Shown here: piece after piece, positions 21,242 to 44,700 of the stretch
Numbering within the stretch: the stretch's first letter is position 1
How the letters are laid out: the number at the start of each line of letters is the position of its first letter
Assembly: GCA_037176845.1 (NCBI GenBank)
Contig: JAYKXP010000105.1
Location: 62,001-126,000, forward strand
Direction: 5' to 3'
From: Paramarasmius palmivorus
Lineage: Eukaryota; Basidiomycota; Agaricomycetes; Agaricales; Marasmiaceae
DNA: 64,000 nucleotides
Position numbers and translations under genes: made by a program
The notes under the pieces: model-generated
What the model was told of the DNA's origin: nothing
Databases searched by the model: none
What the model saw: only the letters and a program-made list of their open reading frames with translations

Positions 21242-21266
21242 CCCGCTACCCCTATAGGGTAGTGGG
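21242..21266 (+). repeat. Proposed 5' terminal repeat and palindrome of the Helitron
   Basis: CCCGCTACCCC (21242-21252) is the inverted copy of 44671-44681. It also overlaps a local palindrome: CCCGCTACCC pairs with GGGTAGTGGG (21257-21266) with one G-T mismatch around CTATA. The preceding T would give the usual TC start. Confidence 0.6.
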
Positions 21267-21663
21267 TTTTGGTGGTGTGATGTGTTGAAAATGCCTCCAC
21301 TCCGATTTTGCGGCGAGTAACACAAAGTGAATTTTTTCTTTGGTCATGTTTATGCCGTGCTGTGTCCTTTTATTTGCGTACAAACAAAACTTTGAACAAA
21401 ACCCCGCGCTCCTTTTTCACCTTCTTGATCCGCTCCCCCTTTCACTTTACGGTGTAACCGTTTTGTGACTTTCTCTTTGACATCCAGCGCAAGTTGGGCC
21501 TCTCATTGACCAGTCTCTACGACACGCTCGAGTTCTCGCCTGAACTATCGCACACCGCTGCGCCCCTTTTCGCATAACGAACTCTGTATTTGCGCATTCG
21601 GTGTGTTGTGCTTCTTTTCTCTAGTGTTCAGTACACCCATTGCTTATATTCCGTCTAGAACCT

Positions 21664-24600
21664 ATGCCGTCAGTCCATGTCGAATGTGTGGAAGAAGACG
21701 AGCCCACTAATCCTTCGTTGGACGGTGAAGTCTGGGATCCTTCCGCGGACGTCTCCCCTGCTCACTACAATCCTGGTTGGGATTGTGGTGGCCCCTTTGT
21801 TCAGCCTCTTTTGGCTGGTTGTTCCAGTCAGGCTGAGCACCCCGGCTTGGCCGAGACTTCCGGTTCGGCCGAGATTTATATACATTCCGGTTCGGCCGAG
21901 ACTTCACAATTATATTCCGGTTCGGCCGAGACTTCACAATTGTATTCCGGTTCGGCCGAGAATTCATATCCATCTGGTTTTGCAGAGGGTTCGTTTTCAT
22001 ATGACTCGTCTACTCGTAACTATAGCTATGCGCATGCTGGATCATCTGGCCTTTCTATCCCTGTATCTGTGGTACCAGCTAACCTCCCTTCTGCTATTTA
22101 TATTGAAGATTCGGACGGTAATCACTTAGATGATGGTTGTTTAAATGATGATAATGACCAGATGGAAATTGACCGTACTTCTCTGCTGTCGTGTCTGTAT
22201 CAGAACGTGAATGGTCGTAACAAGCACTCCCCGTTCACCACCAAATCTGCTGATTTACTCACTGCGTGTTCCATGCATGGTATTGACACAGCCGGCAGCT
22301 TTTCCACAGACATGAAACAGGAAGCATTTTTACATCATTTGCTCACGGGGCAATGCGCTCATGATTCCCCCCGACTCGAAGGCTGTCGTAAAATGGCTGG
22401 CACTTTTATTGATCAATTTGACATGGCAAAATACTGTCTGACTCGCGTGGCTACGTCTACTAATAAACAAATGTCAGTACGTCGTCTGCATTTATGTGCA
22501 CGCTCTCTAGGACTGCCCGTTCACACCAGAGCCAATAACGCACGAAGAGTCCTTATAAAAGTACTTTCGGAGTTCCTCGCTACCTATGTCAAAGAGGATC
22601 GGGTGATGGACCGTATTTCTAGCGAAGATGTAACTTACCCCTTAGACGTTCATTCCACTTTTTTTAATTTTGAAAGGCTCACCAAGCCCGTTTTGCTGAA
22701 TCTGATGACACAGCATAACATCCAATCGATACGATATACTGCAACCAAGCCAGAACTAAGAAAGGCTATTTCGGAGCATTTCGCTGCTGGCGAGTGTATC
22801 GCTAATAGTAGGACAACTCTTTCTTCGGAAAGTCCGGGCTGCCATCGGATAACCAGCACGTTTCCTCCCCTTCATGACGCAGGCCACGCCCGAGTCGTTG
22901 CGTCTGACGACCCGCATCATATACAGTTGCTTAAGGAATTAGTAGACCTCTCTGAAGCCCCGTTGAAGAGGATTATGGATGTGCTTCATGTCGAATATAA
23001 TGCGTCGGACAGTGTGAAACAGTTGAGGACTAAGTTCCGGAGATACATTCGTCGCCGTGAAGTCGGGCGTACGTCTACAGATGAGTCTGCTGGTGAAAGT
23101 GACACACGGTTGAGCGAGATCCGTTCGCAATGGCCTCGGCTTGTATCTTCCGACAGAAAGGCGGAGTTAATCGCAGCATTTAAAGAAGCCACGTCCTCGA
23201 GTGAATTGTCCACGAACGTGTGCATGGCCTGTTCTTCACGAATATACAAGACACAAAGTGTCAAGACTGCGCTGAAGGATTTAGATGCTACCCCACTGCT
23301 CCGACCAGACATTCGCAGACGAAGTGATAACGATGATACCGTTGTTGACCGGTCTTGGTTAGATATAGGTTGCATTCCGCCTGTAACTCGCAACGCGTTT
23401 TGTGAAGATGGTGATGTCTTGATCGATCCGTCAGGTGTTGTGTATGAAGAAGGAGAGCAATGGGCTATTCTATGCAATGAATGTTATCGTCACCTTTTGA
23501 AAGAGCAGACCCCCCCCTTGTCTCTGGCCAATCACATGTATCTGGGTGCTGTTCCGGATGTCTTGCAGGATTTGACTGTGGTTGAAGAGGCCATGATTGC
23601 TAGATGTCGTGCAAAGAGTTGGATTATCCAACTCAAGGAGAAGGACCCATCTCGGTCGTTACCTATTAATCAACGGGGGTTTCGAGGTAACATCGTTGTG
23701 TATCCACAAGAGCCGTCTGCAGTGGCTGACGTATTACCCCCGTCAATTACAGACCTTTGTCGGCCGATTTGTGTAATATTTATAGGGAAAGAGCCCCCGA
23801 CGCGAGAATGGCTGGCACAAAAAGCCAAGCCGTTGTCTGTACGTCCCCACAAGGTTAGACTCGCACTGGAGTGGCTAAAAGGTCATAACAAATTTTATAA
23901 GGATCTGAGGATTGATTATGCATTGTTGGAATCGCTTCCAGACGAGTATACCTTGCCTGTCCACGTCGAGCACGTTCTCCCTGACTCCAGGCTAGACTCG
24001 CTGACATCAAGGTATGATCACAACGCCCAAACTGAGCCATCTGTTGCTCAGGGAGACCAGTCTTCCACGCCCATACATTTTGAGAGTGTCGTGATCACCG
24101 ATGTTGACGGTGATGCTAGTTCAAATGAATTGAAAGCAGCTGCTCTTCGCCATATTCACAAAAAAGGCGGGAGTTATGTTCAATTGCCTCATGGCCCACG
24201 CCCTGTTAGTGAGTTCAACAACCCGGCTCTCTTCCCCATGATATATCCAACACTGTTCCCATATGGTATCGGTGGATTTGAACAGAGTAAACGCACGAAA
24301 CGAGTTTCTATGCAGCGTCAGGTGAAGTATTTGTTAGGTTTATCTGATCGTCGATTTCAAGAACATTACAGCTTTTTATTTACTGCATTCAATATGTTTC
24401 AACGCAGAGAAATTTTGCGAACGACTGCAGCTAGGATCAAACGCTCCGACTTTCATTCCTTCGCTACCGCTATGTCATCTCTATCGCCAGAACTCGTCAA
24501 TTCTGTCGTAGAAAGATATGCAAGTGGTCTTCCTGTAGGTCATTTGACTGATGAAGAGAAGCGTGTGGAGGCCCTTATGCGCCAAGTAAACGTTGTAACT

Positions 24601-27600
24601 ACCAGTGTCGCAGGTAGTAGCGCATCTCGTGTGCGGATGCGCAATGAATTACGGGCACTGCAAATTGACCAAGGGCTACCTAGCTTTTATTTGACGATTA
24701 ATCCTGCTGATGTTTACAATCCTGTAGTTCGGTTCCTTGCTGGTGAGGAGATTGATGTCGACAATATATTGCCTCATCAAAAAGGTAATTATTGGGAGCA
24801 AGCGAAGCTGATCGCGAAAAATCCGGCGGTTGCTGCAAATTTCTTCGAACTGTATGTCAACGCCTTCATATCGGCTTTATTGCAGTACTCGACTAACAGT
24901 AGTGAACCTGGTGATGGCATTTTAGGTACTGTCAAAGGGTACTATGGTTGTGTAGAGGCTCAGGGCAGAGGAACTCTTCATTGCCACATGCTGATATGGG
25001 TTGAAGGCGGATTGAATCCGAACGAAATTAAAAAAAGGATTCTCGAAGAAGGTGATGAAGAGTTTAAGCGCAGGCTCCTCGCTTTTCTTGATGATACTAT
25101 ATCTACATCCGTCCCTGCTGATCCTGATCCCGCACTTGTGGTACCTTCTTCGACCTCACATCCATGTAGCGTTCGTGGGGTTGGCCCGCAGGGCAATCGG
25201 ACACCCGAGAATATGAAAATTGCACGTGAAAAAGATATGTTCCTGCTTGCGCAGGAATGTCAAGTTCATGATCATACAGATACATGCTTCAAGTATTGCA
25301 AGAAGGGTGAGCCCGAAGAGTGCCAGTTTCATTTGGATGCCGAGAATGTCAACCCTGTCAGTTTTGTAGACCCAGCCACTGGTGAAATCACATTGCAGTG
25401 CCTCGATGGTCTTGTGAATAATTATAATGCGACAGTGCTTGAGGCTATGCGCTGTAATATGGATATTAAGTTCATTGGTTCTGGCTCATCTGCAAAGGCA
25501 ATAGTGTATTATGTTACCGATTATATTACAAAAACTCAGCTAAAGACACATGTTGCTTATGCCGCTTTAGAGTCTGCTTTACGAAGAGCTGCTGAATGTG
25601 CATCTAGTACGGACAGTAACACCGGATTCCTCGTGTATGATGATACTACCGGCTTTCAGCCCTCGTCTTATCAACGCCAAGATTTGGATCCCGCCATAGC
25701 TCACGCCAAACGGTTGCTGCAAAAATGTTCCTTTTCTATCATTAACCATCAAGAGCTATCTGCGCAACAGGTTATGTCGTATTTGCTCGGTTTCAGCGAC
25801 CATTACACTAGTCACAAGTTCCGTTCCTTTTCGTGGTCCCCGATCGAGAAATTCATCAGTTCAACAGATTCATATGACGTTTCGGGGCCTGTGACGCCAG
25901 ATGAACCACACCTGTCTACCGAAAGGGTCCATGAAGAGCCTGTGGATGATGCAGGTACTGGTCAGGAAGAAGACGAACGTCTAGATCACGACGAGCATGT
26001 TCAGGATGATGATGCTGATAATGGGTATGATGGTATTGATGAAGAGTACGATCCACCGTTGCCCGCTAATGAAACATCCCATCGTTCTGTTGTCGACTCT
26101 GTTGAAGAGTATGATGGTGATGTCCGGGTCACCGTGGAAGACGGGACGATGCGCTTTCAAGTAGGACTCTTGGCAGACTATCATTTTCGCGCCACTGAAC
26201 TAGAAGAGTTGTGTTTATGGGATGCAGTCTCTCGACTACGCAAAGTCCGTAAATTGCGTCCTCGCGCTAGTCGTAGGCGGCCTGGCCCAGTTGATAGAGA
26301 AGATGAAATGCTGGCGGATGATGTATCGTTTGTCGATGAGAGTGGTGATGTGTCCGATGAACTCGAGTTGGATGACCAAGGCAGTGATAGTGGGGAGGAT
26401 ATTGAACACATCCATGATGGAGGTAGTGATAGCGATGACAATGACGAGGATGGAGTTCAACCGTCTGACGTAAATGATGTCTACTCATTACTAGGTGATT
26501 CGAGACGCAAACGGCCGAGATTTTCGTTCAAGGCTACCCACCCTGAAGCTGATTCCCATGACTATCAAATATGTTCGCCTCGTGATCGAATAGTGCCCGT
26601 CCCGATTGGGCAAAGTATTCCAAGAAGAGATCGGCCAGAAGTATATGAAAGATATTGTAGACTGATGCTGATTTTCTTCAAGCCGTGGCGTACCGCTGAG
26701 GATCTGCGGATGAGCGGACAGAGTTGGTCGGATGCGTTTGAACACTTTCGTTTAACCTGCAGATCATCTATATTGAAGCTTATGGACAACATGCAGTTGC
26801 AGCACGAATGTAAGGACAGTCGAGACGATCATTTTTCTAGCCGAGCTAGCAGGAGACGTGAAAGAAAGAGGTTGTTGAGGGGTTTGATATATAGAGAACG
26901 GGTTTCTGAGGATGATGATTTTTTTGGAAGTGATGACGTCACTTCCGAAGTTATCCAGCACATTGAATCTGTTTTGGCTGCCCGTAGCACCAGGGATAGC
27001 AATACGGAACAAGACATTGCAGAATGCTTGACATATGCTAACGTGGCGGGACTGTTCAGTAATCACGAAACTGACCATGCCAATGTGCCCAGAGCTCACG
27101 GTGACGCTGGTCATATATTCTTGGTCGAGGACCACCCTGAACTTGAGACAAAGATTTCCCGAAAGTATGAAGAACGAAGGCGCGCTCTTCGGACGAATGC
27201 TATGAATGTATCAATACAAAGTGACTCCGGTACCTCTCCAATGGAGGAATCGATTCCTGTTACAGTACAGCCAATTGCGACAGGGCCGACACATCTCATG
27301 AACCGGTTGGACCCTTTTGTAGAGCCCAGTATTGAACATGATATAGAAGCCACTGACTCAGATAATCACGTTGACATTGATGAATTCCTTAATCGATACG
27401 ATCCTCCACTCAACAAGGAGCAGGAGCGTTCATTCTGGATAGTAGCTCGCCGGTCCTTAACCCACAACCGCAGGCCTTTGCGCATGTTCATCGGCGGTCC
27501 AGGTGGTACTGGAAAGTCACATGTGATTTCTGCGTTAAAGGCATTTTTTGACGAAAGAAACCAGTCCCGTCGTTTCCGTCTCGCTTCCTTCACCGGAGTT

Positions 27601-29538
27601 GCGGCGAAAAATATCAAAGGGGTCACTTTACACTCCACGTTGTTGCTAGATCAACGCTCTACCATCAATAGTAATAGTAAAAGTCATAGAGATCTCATTG
27701 CAATGTGGAAAGGTGTCGATTATCTCTTCATTGATGAGGTGTCCATGATTGGTTGTCAGCTCTTGCTGAAGGTGAGCAAGGCTTTGGGAAGAGCAAAACA
27801 GAATAGTAAACCTTTCGGTGGAATCAATATCATCTTTGCAGGCGACTTTGCACAATTACCACCGGTGCGAGACATCCGATTGTATGCTCATGTGAACACT
27901 AAATCAGTCACTACAATGTATGGACAAAACACCGTTTTTGGTAAGCTTTTGTGGTTGTCGATTGACGTAGTGGTATTACTCGATGAAGTGATGCGTCAAA
28001 GTGGTGATGAAAACAGACGTTTTGTAGACTTGCTGTCCCGATTACGACTGGGTGCGTGTGACGATGATGATTACGAATTATTGCATTCTCGGGTACTTGC
28101 AAACATACAGCGCCGTGAGCGGCTACAAGATCTCAAAGGGACCCCAATCATTGTATCAGGCAACAAAGTTAAGGACACTATGAACATTAAGGCAGTTGAG
28201 ACTTTTTCCCAACAAGTCGGCCGTCCCGTGTATTGGTACAATGCTGTCGACAAGCATCGGGGGAAAATAGTCACGGATGCCACTTTGCGTTCTCGTATAG
28301 GATTGTTGCATTCCGGCCAGACAGGACACAGGATGTTTGAATTACCATTAGTGATCGGGATGCCTGTTGTCATTGGTCAGAATTTTGATGTAGCTGGAGG
28401 AGTTGTGAATGGTACTACTGGCGTTTTAGTCAGAGTTCGATTCAAATTGGATGGTGAAGGTAATCGATATGCATTGTCTTGTGTGGTGAAAGTAGACGAC
28501 AATAACATGCCACCAATGGACGATAGTCTGCATGAAGGTGAGGTGATGGTGCTCAGTGACTGTGTCCAATGCAGTCTCCCAAATCCGTACTCTAAGAAAA
28601 GGTTCAATTTTTCTCGAAGCCAGCTCCCGTTAATGCCCGGTTTCGTCATGACTGCGCATAAAGCACAGGGACAAACACTGTCTCGTGTTATCGTCGACTT
28701 GCAAACATGCAGGGGTACAGAAGAACCTTACGTCATGATATCCAGAGTCAAGAATCTTGAAGGTCTGTTTATTTTGCGGCCGTTTGATAGAAGGAAAATA
28801 CAATGTCGACAGTCGGAAGACACAAGGAAGGAAGCCATCCGTCTACAATTCCTTCGAGTATCCACCCTTCTAGAATATGGGGACGACGAGGAGGTAATTT
28901 TGGCTAGACGGCTGCTAAACGATCGCAGTTGGCTGTCTTATTCCGCCGCACATGTTTCACTAGACGAAATGATCATCGATGAAAAGGATCAGCCCCCGCA
29001 GCCGACTACCATCAGCCGGTTGAGCGCATTGCAATCTGCTACCAGTCATTTACCCCCCTCACCAATCCGTCTCGAGTCCAACCAGCGTGCACGTAATTCC
29101 ACGTCTGAACGGGACCGCCATGAACAACACGGTATCGAAAACGGCAGGCATAAACGTCGGCGTCTAAATTGTAGCAATACCAATTCTGCTACATCCGATG
29201 AACGCGTCTTCGTGCGCAGATCGTTGTCCGATTCGTTCGCGCCACTGCCTATTCCTGAACAATCCACTCGACCGCAACGGGCTTTCGTAAGAAGGGCCTT
29301 GTCTGATACATTTGTGTCTCGGGCAGAACCCCATAATCGACCCGCCTTGCCTGTCTCAACTAGAGCATCCAGGGAATTCTCCAGAATGACTTTGTCTGAG
29401 CGGTTCAATCCTCCACAAGTTCGGGAGGACTCTGTCAGACGATCGAATACAGGGGTCGTCAATGATACGAGACCGGTATTTGCGTTGAGACCGCTGTCGG
29501 CACTGTTCACTACTCCTTCCACACATCGATCATCGTGA
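21664..29538 (+). CDS. Helitron Rep/helicase transposase
   Basis: A single 2624-aa ORF with no intron. Domains in order: Ser/Gly repeats (four copies of the 15-base unit TCCGGTTCGGCCGAG between 21859 and 21960, encoding SGSAE); two SAP-like helices (about 350-480); a CxxC...CxxC zinc module (about 519-615); a DUF6570-like region (about 665-790); and a Helitron-like Rep domain. The Rep domain has the HUH motif H1106-C-H1108 (GRGTLHCHMLIW), a Cys/His knuckle (VHDHTDTC) and paired tyrosines Y1283-x3-Y1287 (YYVTDYITK). An acidic linker leads to a PIF1-family helicase with Walker A GGPGGTGKS (1944-1952) and Walker B FIDEVSM (2022-2028). The C-terminus holds four F-x-RR-x-LSD-x-F-like repeats (from about 2514). 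It should nick, unwind and rolling-circle copy the element. All catalytic residues are present, so it may be active. The ATG at 21664 is the first in the ORF. Confidence 0.95.
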   Translation: MPSVHVECVEEDEPTNPSLDGEVWDPSADVSPAHYNPGWDCGGPFVQPLLAGCSSQAEHPGLAETSGSAEIYIHSGSAETSQLYSGSAETSQLYSGSAENSYPSGFAEGSFSYDSSTRNYSYAHAGSSGLSIPVSVVPANLPSAIYIEDSDGNHLDDGCLNDDNDQMEIDRTSLLSCLYQNVNGRNKHSPFTTKSADLLTACSMHGIDTAGSFSTDMKQEAFLHHLLTGQCAHDSPRLEGCRKMAGTFIDQFDMAKYCLTRVATSTNKQMSVRRLHLCARSLGLPVHTRANNARRVLIKVLSEFLATYVKEDRVMDRISSEDVTYPLDVHSTFFNFERLTKPVLLNLMTQHNIQSIRYTATKPELRKAISEHFAAGECIANSRTTLSSESPGCHRITSTFPPLHDAGHARVVASDDPHHIQLLKELVDLSEAPLKRIMDVLHVEYNASDSVKQLRTKFRRYIRRREVGRTSTDESAGESDTRLSEIRSQWPRLVSSDRKAELIAAFKEATSSSELSTNVCMACSSRIYKTQSVKTALKDLDATPLLRPDIRRRSDNDDTVVDRSWLDIGCIPPVTRNAFCEDGDVLIDPSGVVYEEGEQWAILCNECYRHLLKEQTPPLSLANHMYLGAVPDVLQDLTVVEEAMIARCRAKSWIIQLKEKDPSRSLPINQRGFRGNIVVYPQEPSAVADVLPPSITDLCRPICVIFIGKEPPTREWLAQKAKPLSVRPHKVRLALEWLKGHNKFYKDLRIDYALLESLPDEYTLPVHVEHVLPDSRLDSLTSRYDHNAQTEPSVAQGDQSSTPIHFESVVITDVDGDASSNELKAAALRHIHKKGGSYVQLPHGPRPVSEFNNPALFPMIYPTLFPYGIGGFEQSKRTKRVSMQRQVKYLLGLSDRRFQEHYSFLFTAFNMFQRREILRTTAARIKRSDFHSFATAMSSLSPELVNSVVERYASGLPVGHLTDEEKRVEALMRQVNVVTTSVAGSSASRVRMRNELRALQIDQGLPSFYLTINPADVYNPVVRFLAGEEIDVDNILPHQKGNYWEQAKLIAKNPAVAANFFELYVNAFISALLQYSTNSSEPGDGILGTVKGYYGCVEAQGRGTLHCHMLIWVEGGLNPNEIKKRILEEGDEEFKRRLLAFLDDTISTSVPADPDPALVVPSSTSHPCSVRGVGPQGNRTPENMKIAREKDMFLLAQECQVHDHTDTCFKYCKKGEPEECQFHLDAENVNPVSFVDPATGEITLQCLDGLVNNYNATVLEAMRCNMDIKFIGSGSSAKAIVYYVTDYITKTQLKTHVAYAALESALRRAAECASSTDSNTGFLVYDDTTGFQPSSYQRQDLDPAIAHAKRLLQKCSFSIINHQELSAQQVMSYLLGFSDHYTSHKFRSFSWSPIEKFISSTDSYDVSGPVTPDEPHLSTERVHEEPVDDAGTGQEEDERLDHDEHVQDDDADNGYDGIDEEYDPPLPANETSHRSVVDSVEEYDGDVRVTVEDGTMRFQVGLLADYHFRATELEELCLWDAVSRLRKVRKLRPRASRRRPGPVDREDEMLADDVSFVDESGDVSDELELDDQGSDSGEDIEHIHDGGSDSDDNDEDGVQPSDVNDVYSLLGDSRRKRPRFSFKATHPEADSHDYQICSPRDRIVPVPIGQSIPRRDRPEVYERYCRLMLIFFKPWRTAEDLRMSGQSWSDAFEHFRLTCRSSILKLMDNMQLQHECKDSRDDHFSSRASRRRERKRLLRGLIYRERVSEDDDFFGSDDVTSEVIQHIESVLAARSTRDSNTEQDIAECLTYANVAGLFSNHETDHANVPRAHGDAGHIFLVEDHPELETKISRKYEERRRALRTNAMNVSIQSDSGTSPMEESIPVTVQPIATGPTHLMNRLDPFVEPSIEHDIEATDSDNHVDIDEFLNRYDPPLNKEQERSFWIVARRSLTHNRRPLRMFIGGPGGTGKSHVISALKAFFDERNQSRRFRLASFTGVAAKNIKGVTLHSTLLLDQRSTINSNSKSHRDLIAMWKGVDYLFIDEVSMIGCQLLLKVSKALGRAKQNSKPFGGINIIFAGDFAQLPPVRDIRLYAHVNTKSVTTMYGQNTVFGKLLWLSIDVVVLLDEVMRQSGDENRRFVDLLSRLRLGACDDDDYELLHSRVLANIQRRERLQDLKGTPIIVSGNKVKDTMNIKAVETFSQQVGRPVYWYNAVDKHRGKIVTDATLRSRIGLLHSGQTGHRMFELPLVIGMPVVIGQNFDVAGGVVNGTTGVLVRVRFKLDGEGNRYALSCVVKVDDNNMPPMDDSLHEGEVMVLSDCVQCSLPNPYSKKRFNFSRSQLPLMPGFVMTAHKAQGQTLSRVIVDLQTCRGTEEPYVMISRVKNLEGLFILRPFDRRKIQCRQSEDTRKEAIRLQFLRVSTLLEYGDDEEVILARRLLNDRSWLSYSAAHVSLDEMIIDEKDQPPQPTTISRLSALQSATSHLPPSPIRLESNQRARNSTSERDRHEQHGIENGRHKRRRLNCSNTNSATSDERVFVRRSLSDSFAPLPIPEQSTRPQRAFVRRALSDTFVSRAEPHNRPALPVSTRASREFSRMTLSERFNPPQVREDSVRRSNTGVVNDTRPVFALRPLSALFTTPSTHRSS

Positions 29539-29616
29539 TGCCTCCTGTTTGTTTAGAGAGGTATGTCTCGTAGTTTCGACTCTGTTTATTGTAGATTGTA
29601 ATTTTTGTCCCGCGTG

Positions 29617-29624
29617 TATATAAA
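29617..29624 (+). promoter_or_regulatory. TATA box of the first cargo gene
   Basis: TATATAAA 82-89 bases before the ATG at 29706. The in-frame ATG at 29637 lies only 13 bases after it, too close to be on the transcript, so the downstream ATG is preferred. Confidence 0.55.
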
Positions 29625-29705
29625 GATCAATGTACGATGGTATTGAACAGCAGTTGCCTGCACTTCATCTCCAAACAACGTCTGCACTCGAAGTCACCTT
29701 CCTCA

Positions 29706-31466: not shown

Positions 31467-31542
31467 AACTGCTGTCTAGGACAATGTGTTAGACTATTTC
31501 CTGTAGTTTATTAACACGCGAATGGTTACCTTGTATGTATCA

Positions 31543-32106
31543 ATGCCTAAACAACTTTCTATTTCCCAGTATCTTCCTTCTATCAAAGGACAATCCAAGC
31601 GTGGCTCTTCTGGTTCACGTTACCCATCGAGGTCGGCCAGTAAAAAAGTGGTAAAACGTGCTCCTCCTCGTTTGTACTTTGACTTGTCCCATGTCGTAGT
31701 CCTGCTAATCCTTGGAAAGGTCGCGATACTGAATCGTCTGCAGAAGAGCTGCGACTTGTTCGATTTGATCTGTGAGTCGGCGGAATACTGTCATGTTTCG
31801 ATATCCTTTTTGATTCGCTTGTATAGTGACACCCTTTTTGGTCCTTGCATGGGTATGACTAGGCTGGTGCGATGGCATCGAGCGTGCATGCTGGGATTGA
31901 AGCCTTCTCAAGAGGTATGGTCGACGCCAATCCCCGATACCATAACTGTATCTGACTTTACGCAGATCTACGAGTTGCTCGTGGATAATAAGGGTAGGGA
32001 GATTGAATCACGCCGGTGGTCGGACCTCGATAATAAATTGAACAATACTGTAGCATTAGGTGTTGCTACCTGTGCTACAACCTTCGAATTAGGCTGTAGG
32101 TACTAG
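31543..32106 (+). CDS. Hypothetical ORF, 187 aa
   Basis: An open frame on the same strand as its neighbours, with a TTTATTAA box at about 31507. The N-terminus is basic (QSKRGSSGSRYPSR, KKVVKRAPPR), followed by a hydrophobic helix (VVVLLILGKVAILNRL). I recognise no domain. It may continue through an intron into the open frame at 32126-32416, but no convincing splice pair joins them. It could be a remnant. Confidence 0.35.
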   Translation: MPKQLSISQYLPSIKGQSKRGSSGSRYPSRSASKKVVKRAPPRLYFDLSHVVVLLILGKVAILNRLQKSCDLFDLICESAEYCHVSISFLIRLYSDTLFGPCMGMTRLVRWHRACMLGLKPSQEVWSTPIPDTITVSDFTQIYELLVDNKGREIESRRWSDLDNKLNNTVALGVATCATTFELGCRY

Positions 32107-35327: not shown

Positions 35328-35490
35328 TGTTTCAGTCGGACATTCTGCGTTTGTGGAAATCCGGACATTGGTATATTTGTCAATCAGGTTCGCAACAATA
35401 GCAACAATAGCTCTTACATTGCCCATAGCGCTACAGCTGTTTCATGTGTGCCCCTTTATTTAACATGACTCGTAGCGGTACCGGCCTCTG

Positions 35491-35496
35491 TATATA
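35491..35496 (+). promoter_or_regulatory. TATA box of F-box gene 1
   Basis: TATATA 32-37 bases before the ATG at 35528. It fits the spacing seen for other genes in the block. Confidence 0.45.
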
Positions 35497-35527
35497 GCGA
35501 TCTCCTGCCTATGATGCATGTCCAAAA

Positions 35528-36881
35528 ATGTTTCCTTCATTCCCCCAGGAGGTCTGGCGCGTCGTGTTCAAATTCACTGCACAGTCGCCACCTACTGACC
35601 CGACCATGGTATCTACACTCTTTGTCCTCAGTATGGTTTCATACATCTTCCGTGTTATCGTCCGAAACGATTCTTCTCTATGGAAGTTTTTGTTCATTAA
35701 TCCCCAAACCATGGCCTGCGTACCACGACTCCGCACCTGTCTCTCCCTTTCGAAAAATGAACACATTCACGTTGCGTTCGAAACATCGCCTGATGTCAAT
35801 CACGGAGCACTGCGACATGCCACCTCATTCCTTCTGCAACATTCCAACCATGTTCAAGGGTTGGAATTCCGGCTCCGATCACAAGTACCACAGGGAATCT
35901 TCTCTCCTCCTTTAGCTCCTTTCCCTGTCCTGGATTCTTTTCATTTGGATCATGATGGCTGTCTCTCCCGCAAGCTGGCAACCCCTTATTTGCTACACCT
36001 CCTGCGCACATGTCCATTGAATGAGTTGGGATTCCATGGCCGAGATACTGCTTTGTCTCGTGCGCTATATGTAATGCCCAGCATTCTCAATAATCCTCGA
36101 TTCCGTTTCGAGCATATCCGTGTAATTTCGCTGCAACTCGTTGTATCAGACCAGTGGATGGTGGCCTTGACCCATTTGACACAATTACGGTCGCTGCATG
36201 TTACCTATGCGATTGCGTCACTTCGCTATGCGGCGTCCGAACTTGTGGTACATTTACCGCATTTGACGAACTTGTCTATTGCGGGAGAGGCTGTCGCACT
36301 GAAGCGTCTCCTGATTTTACTGGATGCGCCAAACTTGGAGTGTTTGACTGTCGATGGGATGACGAACACAGACTTCGAGGCATACATGCTCGGCGTTCGA
36401 CCAAATCTAGTCGATCTACACGCAAAATTGGTTGTCGCAGATGACAGCCGTTCCCTTGCCCTCCTGTCATCCATTGCAGTGGCCGGATCGACTCTCAGGA
36501 CACTGTCGTTAAGGTTCACAGGCGGGTTGTGTGGCGAATATCCCAGTATCGCACGTCCTGTTCTTTTCCCTGTGTTACAGACGATTGACCTGGAAAGCTT
36601 TCACTGTCCTTCGTTGGTCGACGATATGCTGCGTTCCTTATGCGCACCCGCAGCCGCCACCTTTGTTGTTGTAAGCCCTAAATCTCACCTATCGACTCTG
36701 GCCAATGCGACAATGCACACTCAAGTTTCATACATCCGAGCCAAGATCCAGATTGATGGGTCGTTCGTAGTAGGATCCTTCTTGAGAGAACGTCCGACTC
36801 TTCGCCACGAATTTTTTATCATTGTGAGTCGGTTCCTCCTCCTCCTGTTGATCACGCTAATTGTATTATTAGGAGACGTGA
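35528..36881 (+). CDS. F-box/LRR-like protein 1
   Basis: Exon 35528-36823 plus a tiny last exon (36873-36881, Glu-Thr-stop) give 434 aa. The N-terminus is a degenerate F-box (FPQEVWRVVFKF...SLWKFLF). The rest is a series of leucine-rich-like strands and helices (LTQLRSLHVTY, LPHLTNLSI, LDAPNLECLTV). Such proteins recruit substrates to SCF ubiquitin ligases through Skp1. Without the intron, the frame would run on to 37138 with non-family sequence, which I reject as coding. It is one of three F-box genes in the block. Confidence 0.72.
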
Positions 36882-37078
36882 TTCAGGGTGCTGCGTGTAC
36901 TTCTGTGAGCTTATGGTTTTCTGTACGGAAATGTATGTATCAGCCGTATTCGGTGTTTCGGTTCTGTCCTGCAACTAGTAAAAGATTTGTGCACTTCCCT
37001 ATGTGTCCGATTGCACCCCGAATTTGCGGAAACTGTTGCTGCAGGGTCTTGTTGGCTGAGCGGGCAAAAGGGTCAATG

Positions 37079-37086
37079 TATTTAAG
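37079..37086 (+). promoter_or_regulatory. TATA-like box of the nucleotidyltransferase-like gene
   Basis: TATTTAAG 35-42 bases before the ATG at 37121. It argues for this start over the in-frame ATG at 37076, which precedes the box. Confidence 0.4.
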
Positions 37087-37120
37087 CCCATTGCCTCTCA
37101 GACTTATACTGGACGTTACC

Positions 37121-38765
37121 ATGTTGAATTCGCTGTAAGCATGTCTTCTTCACTTCGTTTGTACTCCGCTCATTGTGTTACAGCCCTTACACAACCCATG
37201 ACTTTCTATTCAAGGACCTCTCTGTCAAGGACATGCTTCGTCTATATCGTGTCAGTAAGGAGACGTACCACGACCTCCATGCTTTCTTTACTCGCGCTTA
37301 TCGACTAGAGCGTGTATTGTCTCCCTTTTTCTCGGCAGAGGAGATTCCGCAGTTTCGTTTCCAGCTCTGGAACTGCTCTGCTCTCGTGTCTGGGTCGACC
37401 GCATTGTCTTTCTTCAACCGCGAAAATTATGGCACAAACGATCTCGATGTCTACTCCGATGTCGATTCTCTTGACGACCTCGTAGCTTGGTTGCTGTTCA
37501 TCGGCTTTGTTTTCCATCCACGAGTCACCGCTCGGAATTCCCAACGACGAGATCTATTCGAAGCGATCGAGTATGCAAGAACTGTTCTCGTGAACAATGT
37601 GTCATATCATTTGAAGCGTATTCATCTCGATGGTGTGGATTACTTCTGCTCCGGGATAGTAGACGTGTTCGATTTCATTCGTGATGGCAAGAAGGTCCAA
37701 ATCATCGCATGCGCCTCCCATCCGTTGGGTGTAATATTGCAGTTTCATTCAAGTATGTTATTTGTTTTATGTACATGTTCGATATGCTAACCCCAGTTCG
37801 TGTTAGCCATCGTAATGAACTTCATTGGCGCCTACCATGCAGTGTCCCTTTACCCCAAATCCACTTTCGTAGACGGGAAAGGTCTACGTATGAACTGCCA
37901 GAATGCCGAGCGCGCTTGGGAGAAGTACAGCGAGAGGGGATGGACATTGGTTTCATCTGTCCCCTTGGATACGGAGTTCAGTTTGGACTCCGAACTGAGT
38001 GTCTTAGACAGAGTGGTTGGTGACAAGTTCTCCTGGGTTATTCCTCTGGAAGAATGTTCCCTGCTCCCATCTGCCCCTGACAATGTTCTTCTCAACTCGT
38101 TTGCGCTTTCGTACGAAGGCATCCAACCCCGAGTGTTGACTTCGTACATGAAGCTCCCTTCCTCCACGCCTGGTACATTATGTGTGTCCAAAGGATTCGC
38201 TTTCGCCTTGCGGTCTGCGGTTCGATATGGCTTTGTCTCGTTGGACCCTTTGCGCGAGCTGGACACACTCGATGACTAGTACGTTGCTCTTTTTGTTCAG
38301 TACGGTTAATGGCTCACGTTTGTTTCAGCGAGCGCGCTTGTTGGCACGAAGTAATTGCCAGAGCACTGAGCCGTCACTCTATCATCACGCCTTCGTTTGT
38401 GTCGGCCTACAAAGCATTGCAACAATCCCTCGATGTATATTTGTCTGTGAAACACTGTGTAACTTCTGCTCAGTTATACGTGTTGGTCAAATTCGTGGTG
38501 AACCGGGCATTACCGGCTCCTCTCCCTTTCGAGGTAAGTATCATCAGTGGCTCGTATTAATGGATCGTACTAATAGTGGGCGAAGTTCTCTCTACATCAC
38601 GAGTATCTTGAGACAGATAATGAATGCCATCTGCAGGTCATCCTTCGGTCATTTCGGCCGAAGCTTACTTCTCCTGGTAAACTCATCTTGTTGAAGCATT
38701 GGGCCGGATTGTCTATGACATTATATGTACAACACTGGCCCGATGCCTGGAAAACGCCTGTATGA
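37121..38765 (+). CDS. Nucleotidyltransferase-fold-like protein with F-box-like N-terminus
   Basis: Five exons (37121-37134, 37184-37752, 37807-38278, 38329-38533, 38577-38765) are all in phase and give 482 aa. An F-box-like helix pair (KDLSVKDMLRLYRVSK) precedes a core with SGSTAL (about residue 74) and NDLDVYSD (about 91-97). This Gly-Ser plus Asp-x-Asp pattern is the signature of the nucleotidyltransferase fold. Then follow LGVILQFHST and IVMNFIGAYHAVSLYP, with Trp-rich C-terminal pieces (HWAGLSMTLYVQHWPDAW). Proteins of this architecture are frequent and uncharacterised in agarics. Whether it transfers nucleotides is unknown; a third carboxylate was not located. The gene is intact. Confidence 0.75.
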
Positions 38766-39242
38766 TCATGTACTGTTCCTCAGCTTTGTATTACCACCAG
38801 TCTCATGTAAATTGGTTTATTTTGAACGTGGAAGACTGAATGAAACTTGAATGAGAAATTATGCATTGCTTTGGCACCCTGATAACCGAAAGGTTGAAGC
38901 TTGTTAGCTAAACATACTTCGTATCCATTGTGAATCTGTGGATTGATTCGTACATGGTCTCTTACCGATTGCGATCACTGTTGTGATCCGTGCCTCGCCG
39001 GATGTAACCAGTAGATATCTGTTTTTTTACCGTTAAACAGGCTGTGTGAGATCGGGTGTCTGTCTCTACTTGTTCTAAACCTCCGTTTCAGTTGCCATGT
39101 TCTACGTGATTTCCCCTCGGATTATGTTCTAGAATATTAAGTCGAAGCCGTTCGTGATATGTTGGGACTGTGTTAGACTTCTCCTAAACAAGCCTATAAG
39201 TACGAAGCATACGAAGCCCACCAGTTATCCGCAGTCATACAA
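38766..39242. other. Spacer inside the element
   Basis: 477 bases, AT-rich, with no open frame of interest. The TATA-like TATAAG at 39195-39200 lies 43 bases before the next ATG. Confidence 0.45.
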
Positions 39243-39577
39243 ATGCCTTCCCGTCCTAAGCTCTACGCTCGAATGGTCCCAGGGGGGAAGCCCAAGATCC
39301 AGAGGCGAGACATGGATGGTAATTCAATAGCTACTTGCCTACTGTTGCTTTATCGCTCACTTTGTCCGCGATACAGACCTCCCCAGCCAACCGCTATCGA
39401 ATTCCCCCGATACAAATGCCACTCTTGGGGGCGAAGTTGTGAGTGTTGTGCTGTTTGTGGTCGTTCTTCGAGCTTATTTTTAACTAGGGAAATTCAAATA
39501 ATCCAACACAAGTGTCTCCATCCATGCGTAGAAGCGACCGGCTGGCCAAATTGAAGAGAGTGGACTATTCCCTGTAG
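39243..39577 (+). CDS. Small basic protein (75 aa)
   Basis: Three small exons (39243-39318, 39377-39438, 39488-39577) join in phase at introns of 58 and 49 bases. The protein starts MPSRPKLYARMVPGG and ends RRSDRLAKLKRVDYSL, with a polar Asn/Ser/Pro middle. It has no hydrophobic segment and no known domain. The exact phase fit of three exons and a TATA-like box 43 bases upstream make chance less likely. An alternative reading without the second intron ends in a short hydrophobic tail, so a 63-aa tail-anchored isoform cannot be excluded. Confidence 0.5.
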
Positions 39578-40022
39578 CATACCGTGTGAATAGTGCTTTG
39601 TAATCCATGCTCAACCTGTAATGAGACCTTCGTGTGTACAACTATGTTCGTTCGGTTCCTTCATGCGGGTGTGTAACGCCTACATGATTGGCTTCCACTC
39701 ACCGAATGCCATTCATCTTCATGGGATCCTATGCTTGCATTGACTATCGTATTGAATGATTCAAAGCGCCGAACCCACTTCACTCCAACACCCAAAGGGT
39801 ACGGTACTCTGAAAAGTCTGTTCCGTTCGCCTTTATTCAGTCCATCTTTCTTCTCCGAAATAGCTGAAACTCCACCCCGCTGTCTCATGCATGTGTCTTG
39901 CCCTAAACAAGCTGCTGGATATGGAGGGCTTGGTATGAACCAATCCCTGCTGTGCTAGCACTCCTATTCTTGCACTGTATTTAACTAGTGCGCCCGTGTC
40001 AAATACTTGCGCCTGGGGCGAT
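39578..40022. other. Spacer inside the element
   Basis: 445 bases, no supported gene. TATTTAA at 39978-39984 precedes the F-box gene 2 ATG by 39 bases. Confidence 0.45.
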
Positions 40023-41666
40023 ATGGATTCAGTGACTGTATACCATGGTACTATCCTTCCCTACGTTATTTCTCTGCTCATGCTGACGTTGTAAACAGCG
40101 AACTCCCCGCAGCCTGCTACAGAATTGGGGGTCTCGTTAGGCATCAATAGACTGTCTTTATCCGTGGTGAGTCTAACCTTGTGGGAAGATTAACATCATT
40201 GCTAATGCTTCAAACCACAGAAAGCTACGCCCACTGAGGTCTGGTGCAGAATCTTCGAGTTTGTCGCCACCGGTGCATTCCGTCATGTTCTGCTCCTCTG
40301 CAAAATCTGCCGACGATGGAGGGAGATCGCCATTACGTGTGGGTCTTTGTGGAACAACATCGTTGTGTTCAATCCCCGTGTGGTTCATATCACTATGGTG
40401 GAAATGTGGTGTCGTCGTGCTGGCGCCTATCCTCTATCAGTTGACATCTTTGCTTCCTACACTCACTTGCGATCTACTACCAACATTGCGGTGATGCTTT
40501 GTCTATTCTCCCTGATAATGGCCCAAACAAACACCCTCCACTCGTTCTCATTCACGTACCCGGCGACATTGATCACCCCTACAACCTTGCCGACTCCTTC
40601 TGCGTTCACATGCCTCCGAAAGTTGGTCCTTCAATGTGCAGACTACTCGGAAGATGCAGCAAGATATTTAATTTCCCTGTTCAGGGAAGTGCAGTTGACG
40701 CGGTTGGAATGCGGCTCTCTGCATAATGTCCTTGCACCACCGCCAATACTATTCGACCGGCCGACGAACAGTTTAACGCATTTGCGCGTAGATGTGGCTT
40801 CGCCCGCCGACGTACCCCTATTGCTTTCCAGATGTCCTCGCTTATTGACACTGGACGTTTTCTTCAACCATCAAAGGGGGGAAACAGTGGGAGTATGTTC
40901 CTTCGAAACAGCGCTGACATGCCTCATTCTCAGAGGTGACATCAAGGCGAAAATAGCGCTACTCGGTCGTGGGTTGTTCCCTAACCTGACCACCGTCGAT
41001 TGTGGCAATAACGCGTTGGACGACATGTCGATATCGCCCATTGTTCTGGCCCAACAAACCTCTGGTTTCCGTTTGTCCAAACTCACTGCGTCGTGTGTAG
41101 GCGACAGTTTAGACCAACATGGCGCGCCTGATTGTTTGCTTGCCCTGCATACTATACTCGGACACTTAACTTATTTCGACGTTTCCCTTCCTGCATTTTC
41201 ATCGCGTATCGATCAGGTATTGGACCTGCCAAACGTACGAGAAATGGTCATCCGTTTTAACTCGTACAAACTACTGCCAGCTCCATTCGTCATTCCTCAA
41301 TTTCGTGTCCCAAATTTGGGCAGACTTCGGCTCGAAGATTGCAGCTCTCTGATGGACCAAGTCTTAGACCATCTAGAGACCTCGAACTGTCGTCTAAAGG
41401 AGGTCAGCATCAAATTACATAATAACATTCGCCCAAACGATGTTCATCCTATCCGATTTTTACGGGCACCATTCGCAAGTGTGGAAATACTCGATATAAC
41501 CGGTCCCCTTTCCGCATACCTTCTAGAACTACTTGCGACTACTCCTACAGTATTTCCTTCGTTAGCTTGTATTTGCGTCGCTCCATCGATGTTCTGCACT
41601 GACTTCATTCATCGCATTCGCATGCAACGTACCCTGATCCATGTAAAAATAGCAGTTCGTTCGTAG
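40023..41666 (+). CDS. F-box/LRR-like protein 2
   Basis: Three exons (40023-40047, 40099-40166, 40221-41666) join in phase and give 512 aa. The F-box is clear: TPTEVWCRIFEFVATG, then LLCKICRRWREIAITCGSLW (about residues 33-80). The remainder is LRR-like (TCLRKLVLQCADYS, VQLTRLECGSL, LPNVREMVIRFNSY, VPNLGRLRLEDCSS). This is the common agaric F-box type, and SCF-type ubiquitin ligase adaptor is the family role. It sits between the 75-aa gene and RNR2 on the same strand. Confidence 0.82.
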
Positions 41667-41816
41667 ATCCATTCGTGATAGGAGTACAGACATTTGTATC
41701 AAAGATTCCTCAGTACAGTGCCTTTGTCTCTTCGAGTGCTTGGTTTGACGTACATAAATATGCAATGCACCTCGTTTATTTCTACGCCCCCTTCACACAA
41801 TCATACAACTCTAGGA

Positions 41817-42889
41817 ATGGAACCCCTTCTCACCCCATCAGAGCAACGGTTTGTGCTTTTCCCGATTCAGTATGACGACGTACGTGATTATTTAACACCG
41901 TTTGAAGTGTCTGATGAATGCCTAGGTGTGGAAAATGTATAAGAAATCTCTTGCGTCGTTTTGGACTGTGGAAGAGGTGGATCTCTCGAAAGATCTCAAC
42001 GATTGGCGGAACGTGCTTACCACCCAAGAACGCCATTTTCTGTCTCACGTACTGGCCTTCTTCGCCGCTTCCGACGGGATAGTCAACGAGAACCTCGTAG
42101 AGCGGTTCTCAACCGAAGTACAAATTGCAGAGGCGCGAGCTTTCTACGGCTTCCAGATCATGATGGAAAACATTCATTCCGAAATGTACTCTTCCCTCAT
42201 TGCGACGTATATCGAGGACGATACCGAAAAATCGGCTCTATTTAACGCGATTGCCAATATGCCAACCATCAAGAAGAAGGCAGACTGGGCTCTCCAGTGG
42301 GCTCATGATTTAAACGTGCCCTTTGGCGTTCGGTTGGTCGCCTTTGCCGCGGTTGAAGGCATTTTCTTCTCTGGATCCTTTGCCGCTATCTTCTGGCTGA
42401 AGAAAAGGGGGCTTATGCCGGGTTTGACTTTTTCCAATGAACTGATCTCGCGGGACGAGGGTCTTCATACCGACTTTGCCTGTCTCTTGTTCAAACATCT
42501 CAATCATCCGCCCACCCATGCCGCTATAGTCAACGTCATCCGTTCTGCTGTTGAGATTGAGAAGGAATTTCTTGTAGGTATGTACAAAACGTTTGTTCTG
42601 TGTTCTATCATGCTAACTTGTTTCAGACGCCATCCCTGTAGAGCTCATCGGGATGAACAGCGGTTTGATGATCCAATACATTGAGTTCGTTGCCGATCGT
42701 CTACTCTTATCTCTTGGAGTGCCGAAGACGTTCTTTTCGACCAATCCTTTCGATTTTATGGAATTGATCTCGATGGAAGGAAAGACAAATTTCTTCGAGA
42801 AACGTGTTTCGGAGTATTCCAAAGCGAATGTCGCGTTGACGCCAGGAGTCGTGAACCGAGAATTGTACGTTCAATTGTTTGATCGTTAG
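41817..42889 (+). CDS. RNR2: Ribonucleotide reductase small subunit (R2)
   Basis: Three exons (41817-41879, 41926-42577, 42627-42889) give 325 aa. R2 makes the di-iron tyrosyl radical used by the large subunit to reduce ribonucleotides. All metal ligands fall in place: D71 ([10 protein letters not shown]), E102 and H105 (MMENIHSE), E165 ([11 protein letters not shown]), E199 and H202 ([10 protein letters not shown]), plus the radical tyrosine Y109. Two features are odd. It lacks the long N-terminal extension usual in nuclear fungal R2. The C-terminus ([12 protein letters not shown]) departs from the acidic Phe-x-x-Asp-x-Asp-Phe-type tail that docks on R1. Its position among F-box genes inside the proposed Helitron suggests captured cargo rather than the housekeeping copy, but that needs the rest of the genome. 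Confidence 0.93.
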
Positions 42890-43032
42890 ACCAATCTGAT
42901 CCTGGCCGCATAGCATTCTGGACGAAGACTTCTAAGTTGTCGCTCTACGTTTCTCCTCCTGATTTTTTTTTGTCTCATATCTCCTTTGTCAAATAAAAAC
43001 GCTTTGTGCACTGTATGCAATGGTCTGTCATC

Positions 43033-44570
43033 ATGCCAGTTTTCTCTAAGCCTCTCCGACGCGTGTACTTCCCTCCAGAGTTGCTTCTGGCTATCTTCTC
43101 ACATCTCACACCCTCTTGCAGCGTGTCCTTCCTCGAACTGTTGAAAATCACCTGGGTGTCTCGGTTCTGGCGTAATGCTGCAATACACGACAGTAACCTG
43201 TGGTCAACACTCATTCTGTCTTCTCCGGAAGCATGTCACGTTGATATGGTCAATGCGTGGCTCAGACGGTCGGGTGATCGCCTCCTGACTGTCAAGATTA
43301 TTGATCATCCAGTCTTCCCTCTATGTCCTACTCTTGCGCCTTCGCCGTTCGAAAGAATCGTTTACCAGCTCTTCGATTATTCTGCAAAGTGGAAAGAGAT
43401 CACCCTGCTGACGCCTGGGTCGATCCTTCTCCCACGCCCACGCAAGCAGATGAGTTTCGATATAGCGCAGCTTGAACTGTTGCATTTGGAATGTACGGAC
43501 ATGCCAGATGCGGTGGCAGAGTATTTTTGCTCTATTGTGGCTAAGAATGAGCTGCACACTCTCCTCATGGATTTCGCGATAGAGTCGAGCCTCGGCAGTG
43601 GGTGTCTAATCCCTTCGTGTCTATCCCTTACTACCTTGCGGTTCGTGATTCTTTCGAGCTTTCACAAATATTTCGCTGATTAAACTTAGGTGCAACTTCG
43701 ACATGGGTTTATACTCGCTCGCGGTCTTGACATGCTTCCGCCACCTCGAATTTTTGGGCGTGTGTGTCACCGAGTTCGATCCTTTGACATTCACTCGTCC
43801 ACTCAAACCATTTTCGGTGCCTGTGCGCGTATTAACCGTCACCGGGGACCTCAACGCGAAAGTCATTTTCCTGAGCTTGATGGATTGCCCTCGCTTGTAC
43901 GAATTGGACACCGGCATCGAAGACGACGAAAAGATGCCGTTGTTCTCGTTAACAGAATTCTTTTCTCGGACTGCTACTCGTATCAAACGGTTGTCCGTTT
44001 TCGTGAAGGAATCCAGCACTATCCAGTGGCCCACATTCGTCGACTTGGTCAATGACCTTCCGAACTTACATTACCTGCACCTGTCTTTTCCCAACGAGAG
44101 AGTGAGTTCGTCAACCTCCTCCGAATCGTTTAAACCTATGCTTCGATATGTCCAGTTGCACGCGCCTGCAACTGGCCGTGTCGGGGAACACGTCATCCGA
44201 ACAATCTGTGCTCGCTCTTTGAACACCTTCAAGTTCACCGGGTTCATGTTCAATTTCCCTGTGACAATGGCATATCTTGTCGAGAGGAGTGACTGTGTCG
44301 TCTGCATCACTGGAGCTGCTTACCGCAGAAGATGTGCACCATTTCTTAACGATTTTTACGAGTCCATCTACTTGGCCTCATTTGCGGCGTTTACGCTTGT
44401 CGGTTCGTTCGACGTCTATGATACTTAAACATATCCTCCGCTTCCCGCAATGCTTGCCGTCTTTGGAAGAGCTGAGTCTATCCTCGGAGTTTGTGGAACC
44501 TGCGCAAATGCGTAGGCTGAAGTCAGATAGAGGTATTGAGGTCAAATGGGTCTATTGTAATTTCCTTTGA
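43033..44570 (+). CDS. F-box/LRR-like protein 3 (possible frameshift)
   Basis: Exon 43033-43640 joins 43690 onward in phase. The N-terminus is an F-box (VYFPPELLLAIFSHL...WVSRFWRNAAIHDSNLW), followed by LRR-like strands. The frame entered at 43690 stops at 44428, giving a divergent tail. A neighbouring frame from about 44277 to 44570 continues with family-like sequence (SASLELLTAEDVHHFL, WPHLRRLRLSVRS, LPSLEELSLSSEF). A one-base shift between 44270 and 44312 would restore a full-length protein. This is the only such disruption I found inside the element, and it is in the gene nearest its right end. Confidence 0.65.
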
Positions 44571-44662
44571 GTTTTGTATATCTGGTTATGTTGTATTCTA
44601 TCGTATATTGGAATTTCATGCAACCACACGAAAAAAATGACATGTGACTATCAAATCCGAGG

Positions 44663-44700
44663 AGGGCCGTGGGGTAGCGGGCTTTGCCGGAAACGGCCCT
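44663..44700 (+). repeat. 3' subterminal inverted repeat and terminal hairpin of the Helitron
   Basis: GGGGTAGCGGG (44671-44681) is the exact inverted copy of 21242-21252. It is followed by GCCG-GAAA-CGGC (44686-44697), a stem with a GAAA loop. A larger stem, AGGGCCGT (44663-44670) with ACGGCCCT (44693-44700), encloses both. Order and spacing fit the right end of Helitron2-type elements. Confidence 0.62.

Follow-up and report, generated by a model that had tools for sequence, protein, structure and literature searches.

Does the gene for a Helitron-type replication initiator and helicase (Rep/Hel) on contig 105 of the Paramarasmius palmivorus genome stand beside a cluster of host genes, or does it head a single mobile element that encloses them? 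We addressed this question in a window of 64,000 nucleotides (C105:62001-126000, where C with a number denotes a contig) of the 68.3-Mb, 393-contig assembly. An earlier, sequence-only reading of the window had proposed a 23.4-kb Helitron2-like element that appeared to carry about nine intact cargo genes. This proposal was borne out: the element, here called E105, has an independent, collinear relative on contig 228 (E228) that lies between different flanks. We put the probability at roughly 85% that E105 is a giant Helitron2, complete and of the autonomous type, from an old lineage whose Rep/Hel travels together with a conserved gene set. Judged by its sequence, it is almost certainly a complete element of the mobile type with the whole cargo inside. 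The element and its termini are as follows.

21240..44711, plus strand: E105, in all probability a complete giant Helitron2-like element, 23.47 kb; ends kept in independent copies, E228 collinear, flanks unrelated
21240..21266, plus strand: 5′ terminus, TT followed by an 11-nt asymmetric terminal inverted repeat (ATIR), CCCGCTACCCC, in a terminal hairpin
44671..44711, plus strand: 3′ terminus, ATIR GGGGTAGCGGG (44671-44681), hairpin and final GGATTAT

The 5′ start at 21240 reads TTCCCGCTACCCC, and TTCCCGCTACCCCTATAGGGTAGTGGG from the same position forms a 10-pair hairpin. The 11 bases that follow the TT at 21240 are an exact inverted copy of 44671-44681 (GGGGTAGCGGG); the ATIR lies 2 bp from the 5′ end, and its 3′ copy stops at 44681, about 30 bp short of 44711. 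The 3′ end (44671-44711) reads GGGGTAGCGGGCTTTGCCGGAAACGGCCCTACGAGGATTAT, with conserved sequence extending to 44710/44711. Folding with RNA parameters yielded a hairpin at each end: −18.7 kcal/mol and 10 pairs at the 5′ end, with the ATIR involved, and −20.9 kcal/mol at the 3′ end, where the fold also includes ATIR bases. The base before TTCCC is A in all eight five-prime ends that we read (C105, C228, C27, C109, C13, C9, C18 and C67). With a final GGATTAT and a 5′ hairpin, E105 differs from canonical Helitron1 elements, which end in 3′ CTRR and have no 5′ hairpin. The sequence-only reading had set the ends at 21242 and 44700; both ends are real, but their exact positions move to 21240 and 44710/44711. 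A U6 spliceosomal RNA gene (44802-44918, plus strand, Rfam 88.1 bits) begins 91 bp beyond the 3′ end, which places the insertion site of E105 immediately upstream of it.

The 3′-end pattern has a single exact match in the window, at 44674. With 3 mismatches it also matches at 16445 (minus), 21259 (plus, within the 5′ end) and 31925 (minus), against a chance expectation of 1.08 matches at ≤3 mismatches. Thus no plus-strand 3′ end of the E105 type follows Rep/Hel at 29.6 kb, with the limit that a strongly diverged end would escape detection. This bears on a possibility that the sequence-only reading had itself raised against its proposal, namely that a proper Helitron end might lie just after 29.6 kb; as none of this type is found there, a short element stopping there has no usable end.

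Elsewhere in the genome the 5′ pattern of E105 recurs exactly at C27 and C228, which have the same 5′ end, and with 3 mismatches at C40 and C72. A variant 5′ end is present in C9, C13, C18, C109 and C67, and reads TTCCCGCTACGTAAG.. or ..GTTAG.. among the first four; upstream homology among these four starts ≤3 bp from the variant end in five of the six pairwise comparisons, and 14 bp ahead of it in the remaining one. The 3′ pattern of E105 is found with 0-1 mismatch at C2, C78 and C228 and with 3 mismatches at C56 and C93 (control, 1). A pattern covering both 5′ variants detects 19 five-prime ends in the genome (reversed-pattern controls, 0 and 0), and a two-clade 3′ pattern detects 38 sites at ≤3 mismatches (controls, 5 and 6). 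A 3′ match lies downstream on the same strand for 13 of the 19 five-prime ends, within 25 kb for 12 of them and at 28.9 kb for C228; five-prime ends without such a match are at C3, C11:793 kb, C27, C102, C109 (contig end) and C167.

These pairs include five full-size elements with Rep/Hel between their ends: those on C105 and C228, and three on C9 (~18.5 kb), C13 (20.5 kb) and C18 (23.0 kb), for which both ends and parts of the middle were read and the lengths follow from the end positions. The search for further both-ended copies, which the sequence-only reading had suggested, was thus successful in this genome. The C9, C13 and C18 elements form a second clade (B). Eight further both-ended copies are short, 0.25-1.3 kb (C9:814 kb, C10, C24, C26, C40, C67, C72 and C354); they were counted by position, and the one that was read, on C67, has both ends. 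The short copies on C40 and C72 look like alleles.

The two ends also vary together. The ATIR is CCCGCTACCCC in clade A and CCCGCTACGT in clade B. In a comparison of five by five elements (with the B-clade 3′ ends read directly at C9, C13, C18 and C67), A-clade 5′ ends pair over 11 nt with A-clade 3′ ends and over 8 nt with those of clade B, and B-clade 5′ ends pair over 10-11 nt with 3′ ends of their own clade and over 8 nt with those of clade A. This clade-wise co-variation indicates that the two ends of an element belong together across 18-29 kb, and argues strongly against an end arising by chance.

Between its ends E105 holds eight genes besides Rep/Hel, all on the plus strand, among them a nucleotidyltransferase-like (NTase-like) gene and RNR2:

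21625..29538, plus strand: Rep/Hel, a 2637-aa frame open from stop to stop; domains DUF6570, Helitron_like_N (HUH, Y2) and PIF1-type helicase
29706..31466, plus strand: 489-aa gene with 7 exons; the clade's core second gene
31543..32106, plus strand: homologue of POLD4, 135 aa after splicing; exons 31543-31669, 31720-31771, 31827-31914 and 31966-32106
32804..35297, plus strand: 891-aa family gene, conserved coding part; collinear in E228 (39%), family elsewhere in the genome too
35498..37138, plus strand: F-box-type gene 1 (frame); collinear in E228 (25%), no Pfam match
37128..38279, plus strand: NTase-like gene with a GS...DLD motif, two frames; named from the motif alone
40206..41666, plus strand: F-box gene 2; PF12937, 24.9 bits (cut-off 24.3); collinear in E228
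41817..42935, plus strand: RNR2, ribonucleotide reductase small subunit, 324 aa; exons 41817-41879, 41926-42577, 42627-42864 and 42914-42935
42997..44428, plus strand: F-box gene 3, two frames; PF12937, 30.7 bits; collinear in E228

The 489-aa, 891-aa, NTase-like, RNR2 and three F-box-type genes had all been named in the sequence-only reading, which had missed POLD4 at 31543-32106. All three F-box frames are present, but Pfam supports just two of them. The 75-aa gene that had been counted as cargo is dropped: it is not conserved and was not found outside the window at any other element locus examined.

E228 runs from C228:51772 to about 22872 (28.9 kb), with both ends present. At the protein level its order is collinear with that of E105: Rep/Hel, 489-aa, 891-aa, F-box, NTase-like, F-box, RNR2, F-box. 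Extra F-box-type frames in E228 were named by similarity. The E228 flanks (3,726 and 2,858 bases) have no protein match to the window (E ≤ 1e-3), just DNA matches of 15-19 nt. Protein identity between the two elements is 55% for Rep/Hel, 43-51% for the exons of the 489-aa gene, 39-43% for the 891-aa gene, 38-49% for the NTase-like gene and 69% for RNR2.

To assess selection we used 12 coding stretches shared by E105 and E228. Of the fourfold sites, 65-92% differ in 11 of the 12 stretches (RNR2 65%, Rep/Hel 70%); in the remaining one, exon 1 of the 489-aa gene, there are 7 such sites, 29% of them differing. Synonymous divergence (dS) is saturated and not estimable in 8 of the 12 stretches. Near-random silent sites together with conserved proteins point to long purifying selection, and it is very probable that the cargo is maintained by selection. 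For the F-box-type genes, with a nonsynonymous divergence (dN) of 0.84-1.05, constraint is weak. These comparisons make the cargo an old set that diverged together with Rep/Hel, and not freshly captured host DNA.

The linkage of the cargo to Rep/Hel was followed in the flanks of 10 of the 12 close Rep/Hel loci (C11a and C44b were left out). All ten (C105, C228, C11b, C44a, C41, C132, C109, C13, C18 and C9) have the 489-aa gene no more than ~7 kb from Rep/Hel, and a genome search with one member as query gave 17 stretches, 16 at Rep/Hel loci and a single weak one at C65. POLD4 is found near Rep/Hel at seven of the ten (C105, C44a, C41, C132, C109, C13 and C11b); in the genome search five of six non-self matches fall within 5 kb of Rep/Hel, and the sixth, at C7, may be a host gene. 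At five of the ten loci (C105, C228, C11b, C44a and C41) RNR2 is present, at a distance of 7-13 kb from Rep/Hel. In trees built from copies of this genome only, C105 pairs with C228 both for Rep/Hel (97/98) and, with less support, for RNR2 (83/90, under the star mark of the tool).

The Rep/Hel frame of E105 combines a Rep part and a PIF1-type helicase in one protein, and its HUH, Y2 and Walker A motifs are all present (Pfam and motif check). No apurinic-like endonuclease domain is among its Pfam matches (E ≤ 0.01). A genome search, in which 18 of 134 candidates were scored, matched 35 stretches spread over 18 loci. HUH and Y2 are found at all 12 close-clade loci; among 16 rows compared, the HUH pattern used is missing from C67, C18b and C231. 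The Walker A check covered E105 and E228. In a protein-database search the Rep part had 341 matches; among the 120 listed the best is 58% identical, relatives from Ephemerocybe, Collybiopsis, Trametes and Hypsizygus are included, and metagenome and mushroom proteins are common. By similarity, the transposase family is widespread; with so many Rep/Hel relatives at up to 58% identity, other species may hold giant elements as well.

Two cargo genes belong to families of the replication machinery. The first is, by homology, DNA polymerase delta subunit 4 (POLD4). The frame 31507-32106 matches DNA_pol_delta_4 (PF04081) at E 1.8e-9 unspliced, and after removal of three introns the protein matches the POLD4 chains PDB 9ekb_D (E 1.4e-10) and 6s1m_D. 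Its core reads RFDLDTLFGPCMGMTRLVRWHRA, with the family core RFDL...GPCxG.TRL.RW.RA present, and its N-terminus carries QLSISQYL, which resembles a PCNA-binding (PCNA-interacting peptide, PIP-like) motif.

The second gene, RNR2, matches PF00268 (E 1e-90) and the eukaryotic R2 chain 1h0n_A (E 1.1e-102). Its first two introns come from splice modelling, and the last was placed by reading the sequence and is thus a probable assignment. The conserved stretches of class I R2 proteins (diiron ligands and radical tyrosine) and the C-terminal tail are present in E105; we take DEGLH and a further conserved stretch to hold the iron ligands and radical tyrosine, and the tail to be R1-binding. The tail reads FILDEDF in E105 and STDADF in E228, and host-like copies end in VLDEDF or IDEDF. 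The RNR2 reading opens with Met at EPLL in E105, C228 and C44; GEEPLL without Met in host-like copies and C41 suggests an upstream exon there, in which case the RNR2 N-terminal region would be missing in E105. In other eukaryotes this region carries regulatory signals. The RNR2 genes on C61 and C16 (two on the latter) look host-like and sit on short branches; the C16 pair (C16:401263-404044) consists of two head-to-head genes, with a near-copy on C61 (flanks read to 1.5 kb).

The 489-aa gene splices in phase; among 108 in-phase models the 489-aa model is level with a 486-aa model for the best score. The protein has no Pfam relative and no credible PDB relative, and a protein-database search came back empty. 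An oligonucleotide/oligosaccharide-binding (OB) fold, which the C-terminal half resembles by eye, was considered but is not supported: the PDB profile search was empty, Pfam offered nothing credible, and a single-sequence search yielded one chance-level match (E 1.5). An AlphaFold2 model of this half, assembled from exon fragments with one in-frame intron included, is mostly helical at low confidence (pLDDT 64.9, pTM 0.30). We regard the 489-aa protein as a probable core partner of Rep/Hel. The predicted 891-aa model has a pLDDT of 42.5, and a piece of this protein had four database matches, two from Paramarasmius palmivorus and two on short contigs. Genome-wide there are 95 matches to the NTase-like family; weak F-box matches were seen in 4 of 10 members scanned (best E 0.0043), and members lie near Rep/Hel at C41, C132 and C9. 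For the F-box, NTase-like and 891-aa genes a role directed at the host, in protein turnover or conflict, is more likely.

How might such an element move? Rep/Hel would nick the 5′ end (21240) and unwind a 23-kb strand, with rolling-circle copying proceeding to 44711. The 5′ and 3′ inverted repeats would then pair near 44.67-44.71 kb and terminate the cycle; termination by repeat pairing has been proposed for Helitron2 (PMC3627910). The strand would integrate between A and T, with no target duplication. POLD4, with its PCNA-binding-like motif, would be expected to favour assembly of DNA polymerase delta (Pol delta) and PCNA on the element strand, and RNR2 to raise the supply of deoxynucleoside triphosphates (dNTPs) for a long template outside S phase. 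This helper role is proposed because of the functions of the two families and their linkage to Rep/Hel. Whether POLD4, RNR2 and the 489-aa protein serve replication of the element itself is in our estimate evenly balanced. A bolder idea, which we offer tentatively and with the odds somewhat against it, is a self-provisioning rolling-circle replicon, in which the Pol delta subunit captures the host polymerase, RNR2 provides dNTPs and the 489-aa protein acts as partner; possibly with an extrachromosomal stage, its life style would be nearer to that of a large DNA plasmid or virus than to that of a simple transposon.

Several observations weigh against E105 being a complete giant Helitron2 that travels with a conserved gene set. 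E228 has no POLD4 by tblastn or motif scan, and none is present in the parts of C9 and C18 that were read; at C11b POLD4 amounts to two short, weak tblastn pieces ~10 kb off, missed by the motif scan. RNR2 has no match on the contigs of five of the ten loci. Strand and order of the genes differ in C41, C44 and C132, where the 489-aa gene and POLD4 are found on the upstream side of Rep/Hel, so that gene order is not fixed across the clade, and the trees agree only in part: the RNR2 tree joins C44 and C41 (94/93), and the Rep/Hel tree places C41 with C132 and C44b (85/89). Relatives of the 891-aa and NTase-like genes also occur at loci without a scored Rep/Hel. The F-box-type genes of E105 and E228 are just 25-35% identical, and the lack of stops in all 12 stretches of either copy is partly by construction, because these were chosen from open-frame matches. 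No B-clade 3′ end matches with fewer than 3 mismatches, a level at which the controls return 11 sites against 38, and the C11 locus has cargo, yet CCCGCTACCC is absent and there is no convincing inverted repeat in the part read. No close full-size copy of E105 was found in the assembly, nor was an empty site in a search limited to the 239-bp left flank, which occurs just once. The same search bears weakly on an allele lacking Rep/Hel but keeping the cargo, which the sequence-only reading had named as evidence against its proposal; none was seen. Present-day mobility of E105 is thus no more than a possibility, and the role suggested for POLD4 and RNR2 is drawn from their family names.

These points have to be set against other ways of explaining the locus. 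A short autonomous Helitron (21.2-29.6 kb) beside a host gene cluster, with the 44.7-kb end a chance or foreign sequence, would agree with the ~5-14 kb of published fungal Helitrons (PMC6431247, PMC5148889), but it would need a 3′ end near 29.6 kb, where none of the E105 type lies. The 44.7-kb end bears the matching 11-nt repeat and E228 has the same cargo order between the same ends; the present data contradict this explanation, and we consider it very improbable. Equally hard to sustain is the idea that a host block with a Helitron in it by chance underwent segmental duplication: several cargo families do have further copies in the genome, but the similarity between C105 and C228 stops at the termini, and the 3.7-kb and 2.9-kb flanks on C228 have no protein match at the threshold used. 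More serious is the possibility of a fossil or domesticated block, once mobile and now fixed, whose genes are kept for host use. The missing close full-size copy and the ~55% identity of the E105 and E228 Rep/Hel proteins would be expected of such a block. Host use of the cargo, however, requires neither the HUH, Y2 and Walker A motifs nor the two ends, all of which are intact in E105 and E228, and the short both-ended copies (eight by position, one read) show past movement of such ends. We therefore regard a fossil as unlikely.

A different objection accepts a mobile element and disputes what its genes are for. E105 could be a carrier of the Starship kind, with accessory genes that have no part in transposition and instead favour or manipulate the host through F-box-mediated turnover, NTase-based conflict and RNR2 dosage. 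The F-box-type, NTase-like and 891-aa genes are indeed the larger share of the set, and both the genome-wide abundance of the NTase-like family and the 891-aa relatives at loci without a scored Rep/Hel are in keeping with such a role. On the other hand, the genes tied most closely to Rep/Hel are of the replication type (POLD4 at 7/10 loci, RNR2 at 5/10), and the 489-aa gene is nearly confined to Rep/Hel loci (16/17 stretches). A purely host-directed cargo is thus possible, though we would not bet on it. The giant Helitron2 with a conserved gene set remains the reading that we prefer.

By its anatomy E105 appears to be a Helitron2, apparently new among fungal Helitrons in its size and in its conserved, full-length gene set including replication genes. 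The likeness to Helitron2 (PMC3627910; FoHeli of Fusarium oxysporum, PMC5148889) comprises a 5′ ATIR 2 bp from the end and within a hairpin, a start with T, a subterminal 3′ ATIR ~30 bp from the end with a hairpin, and an HUH-Y2 Rep joined to a PIF1 helicase (PMC3627910, PMC5148889). Unlike the Fusarium elements of ~5-11 kb, those described here measure 18-29 kb and have a conserved multi-gene set (PMC5148889). Helentrons share the Helitron2-like ends and Rep/Hel, but Pfam detects no endonuclease domain in the E105 protein. In Pleurotus ostreatus, HELPO1 Helitrons likewise have between one and four genes that follow Rep/Hel, among them genes of unknown function confined to Helitrons; they reach ~14 kb, and their capA-F genes are viral- or retroelement-like or of unknown function, not POLD4 or RNR2 (PMC4289320). 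Fungal TET/JBP transposons, including an Agaricus bisporus Helitron2, also contain a gene for an accessory enzyme presumed to assist the transposon, but this is one demethylation-type gene and not a multi-gene set with replication genes (PMC12730594).

Replication proteins beside Rep/Hel are known from plant Helitrons with RPA-like genes; these encode a single-strand binding protein, whereas E105 has a polymerase subunit and a subunit for dNTP synthesis (PMC4683698, PMC6431247). Large maize Helitrons are similar in size (up to 39 kb), but carry up to nine host gene fragments where E105 has full-length conserved genes (PMC6431247). Starships are also giant fungal cargo carriers; they are led by a tyrosine recombinase gene and occur in Pezizomycotina, in contrast to the rolling-circle Rep/Hel of this agaric element. 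E105 is larger than the fungal Helitrons covered in PMC6431247, PMC4289320, PMC5148889, PMC12730594, PMC8290104 and PMC3627910, and differs from them in its conserved full-length set including replication genes. No Helitron with POLD4 or RNR2 was found in the literature as judged by titles and abstract openings, a search that did not extend to subscription journals and preprints. One genome thus holds five both-ended elements of 18-29 kb, and the two that were compared in full have in common a conserved gene set kept by selection. Should the element be served by the replication genes, they would show how a rolling-circle transposon outgrows its usual size, and basidiomycetes would gain a giant mobile gene carrier with an enzyme unlike that of Starships. 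This raises a testable question, namely on which host replication factors Helitron transposition depends.

A few minor observations concern the other loci. The second-clade elements share a frame of ~250-280 aa with, by eye, a basic start (C13:269351-270169, C9:783838-784593 and C18:749137-749982). Just past the C11 cargo lies a fragment (C11:873.3 kb) that is perhaps the insertion site of the C11 element; by eye it reads as what is presumably the end of a beta-glucan synthesis (KRE6/SKN1-type) gene. Finally, C41:203458 and C24:669978 give near-equal matches to the 891-aa family, the latter 5.7 kb from the contig end; the assembly may here contain both haplotypes of one locus, which also seems to be the case for C40 and C72.

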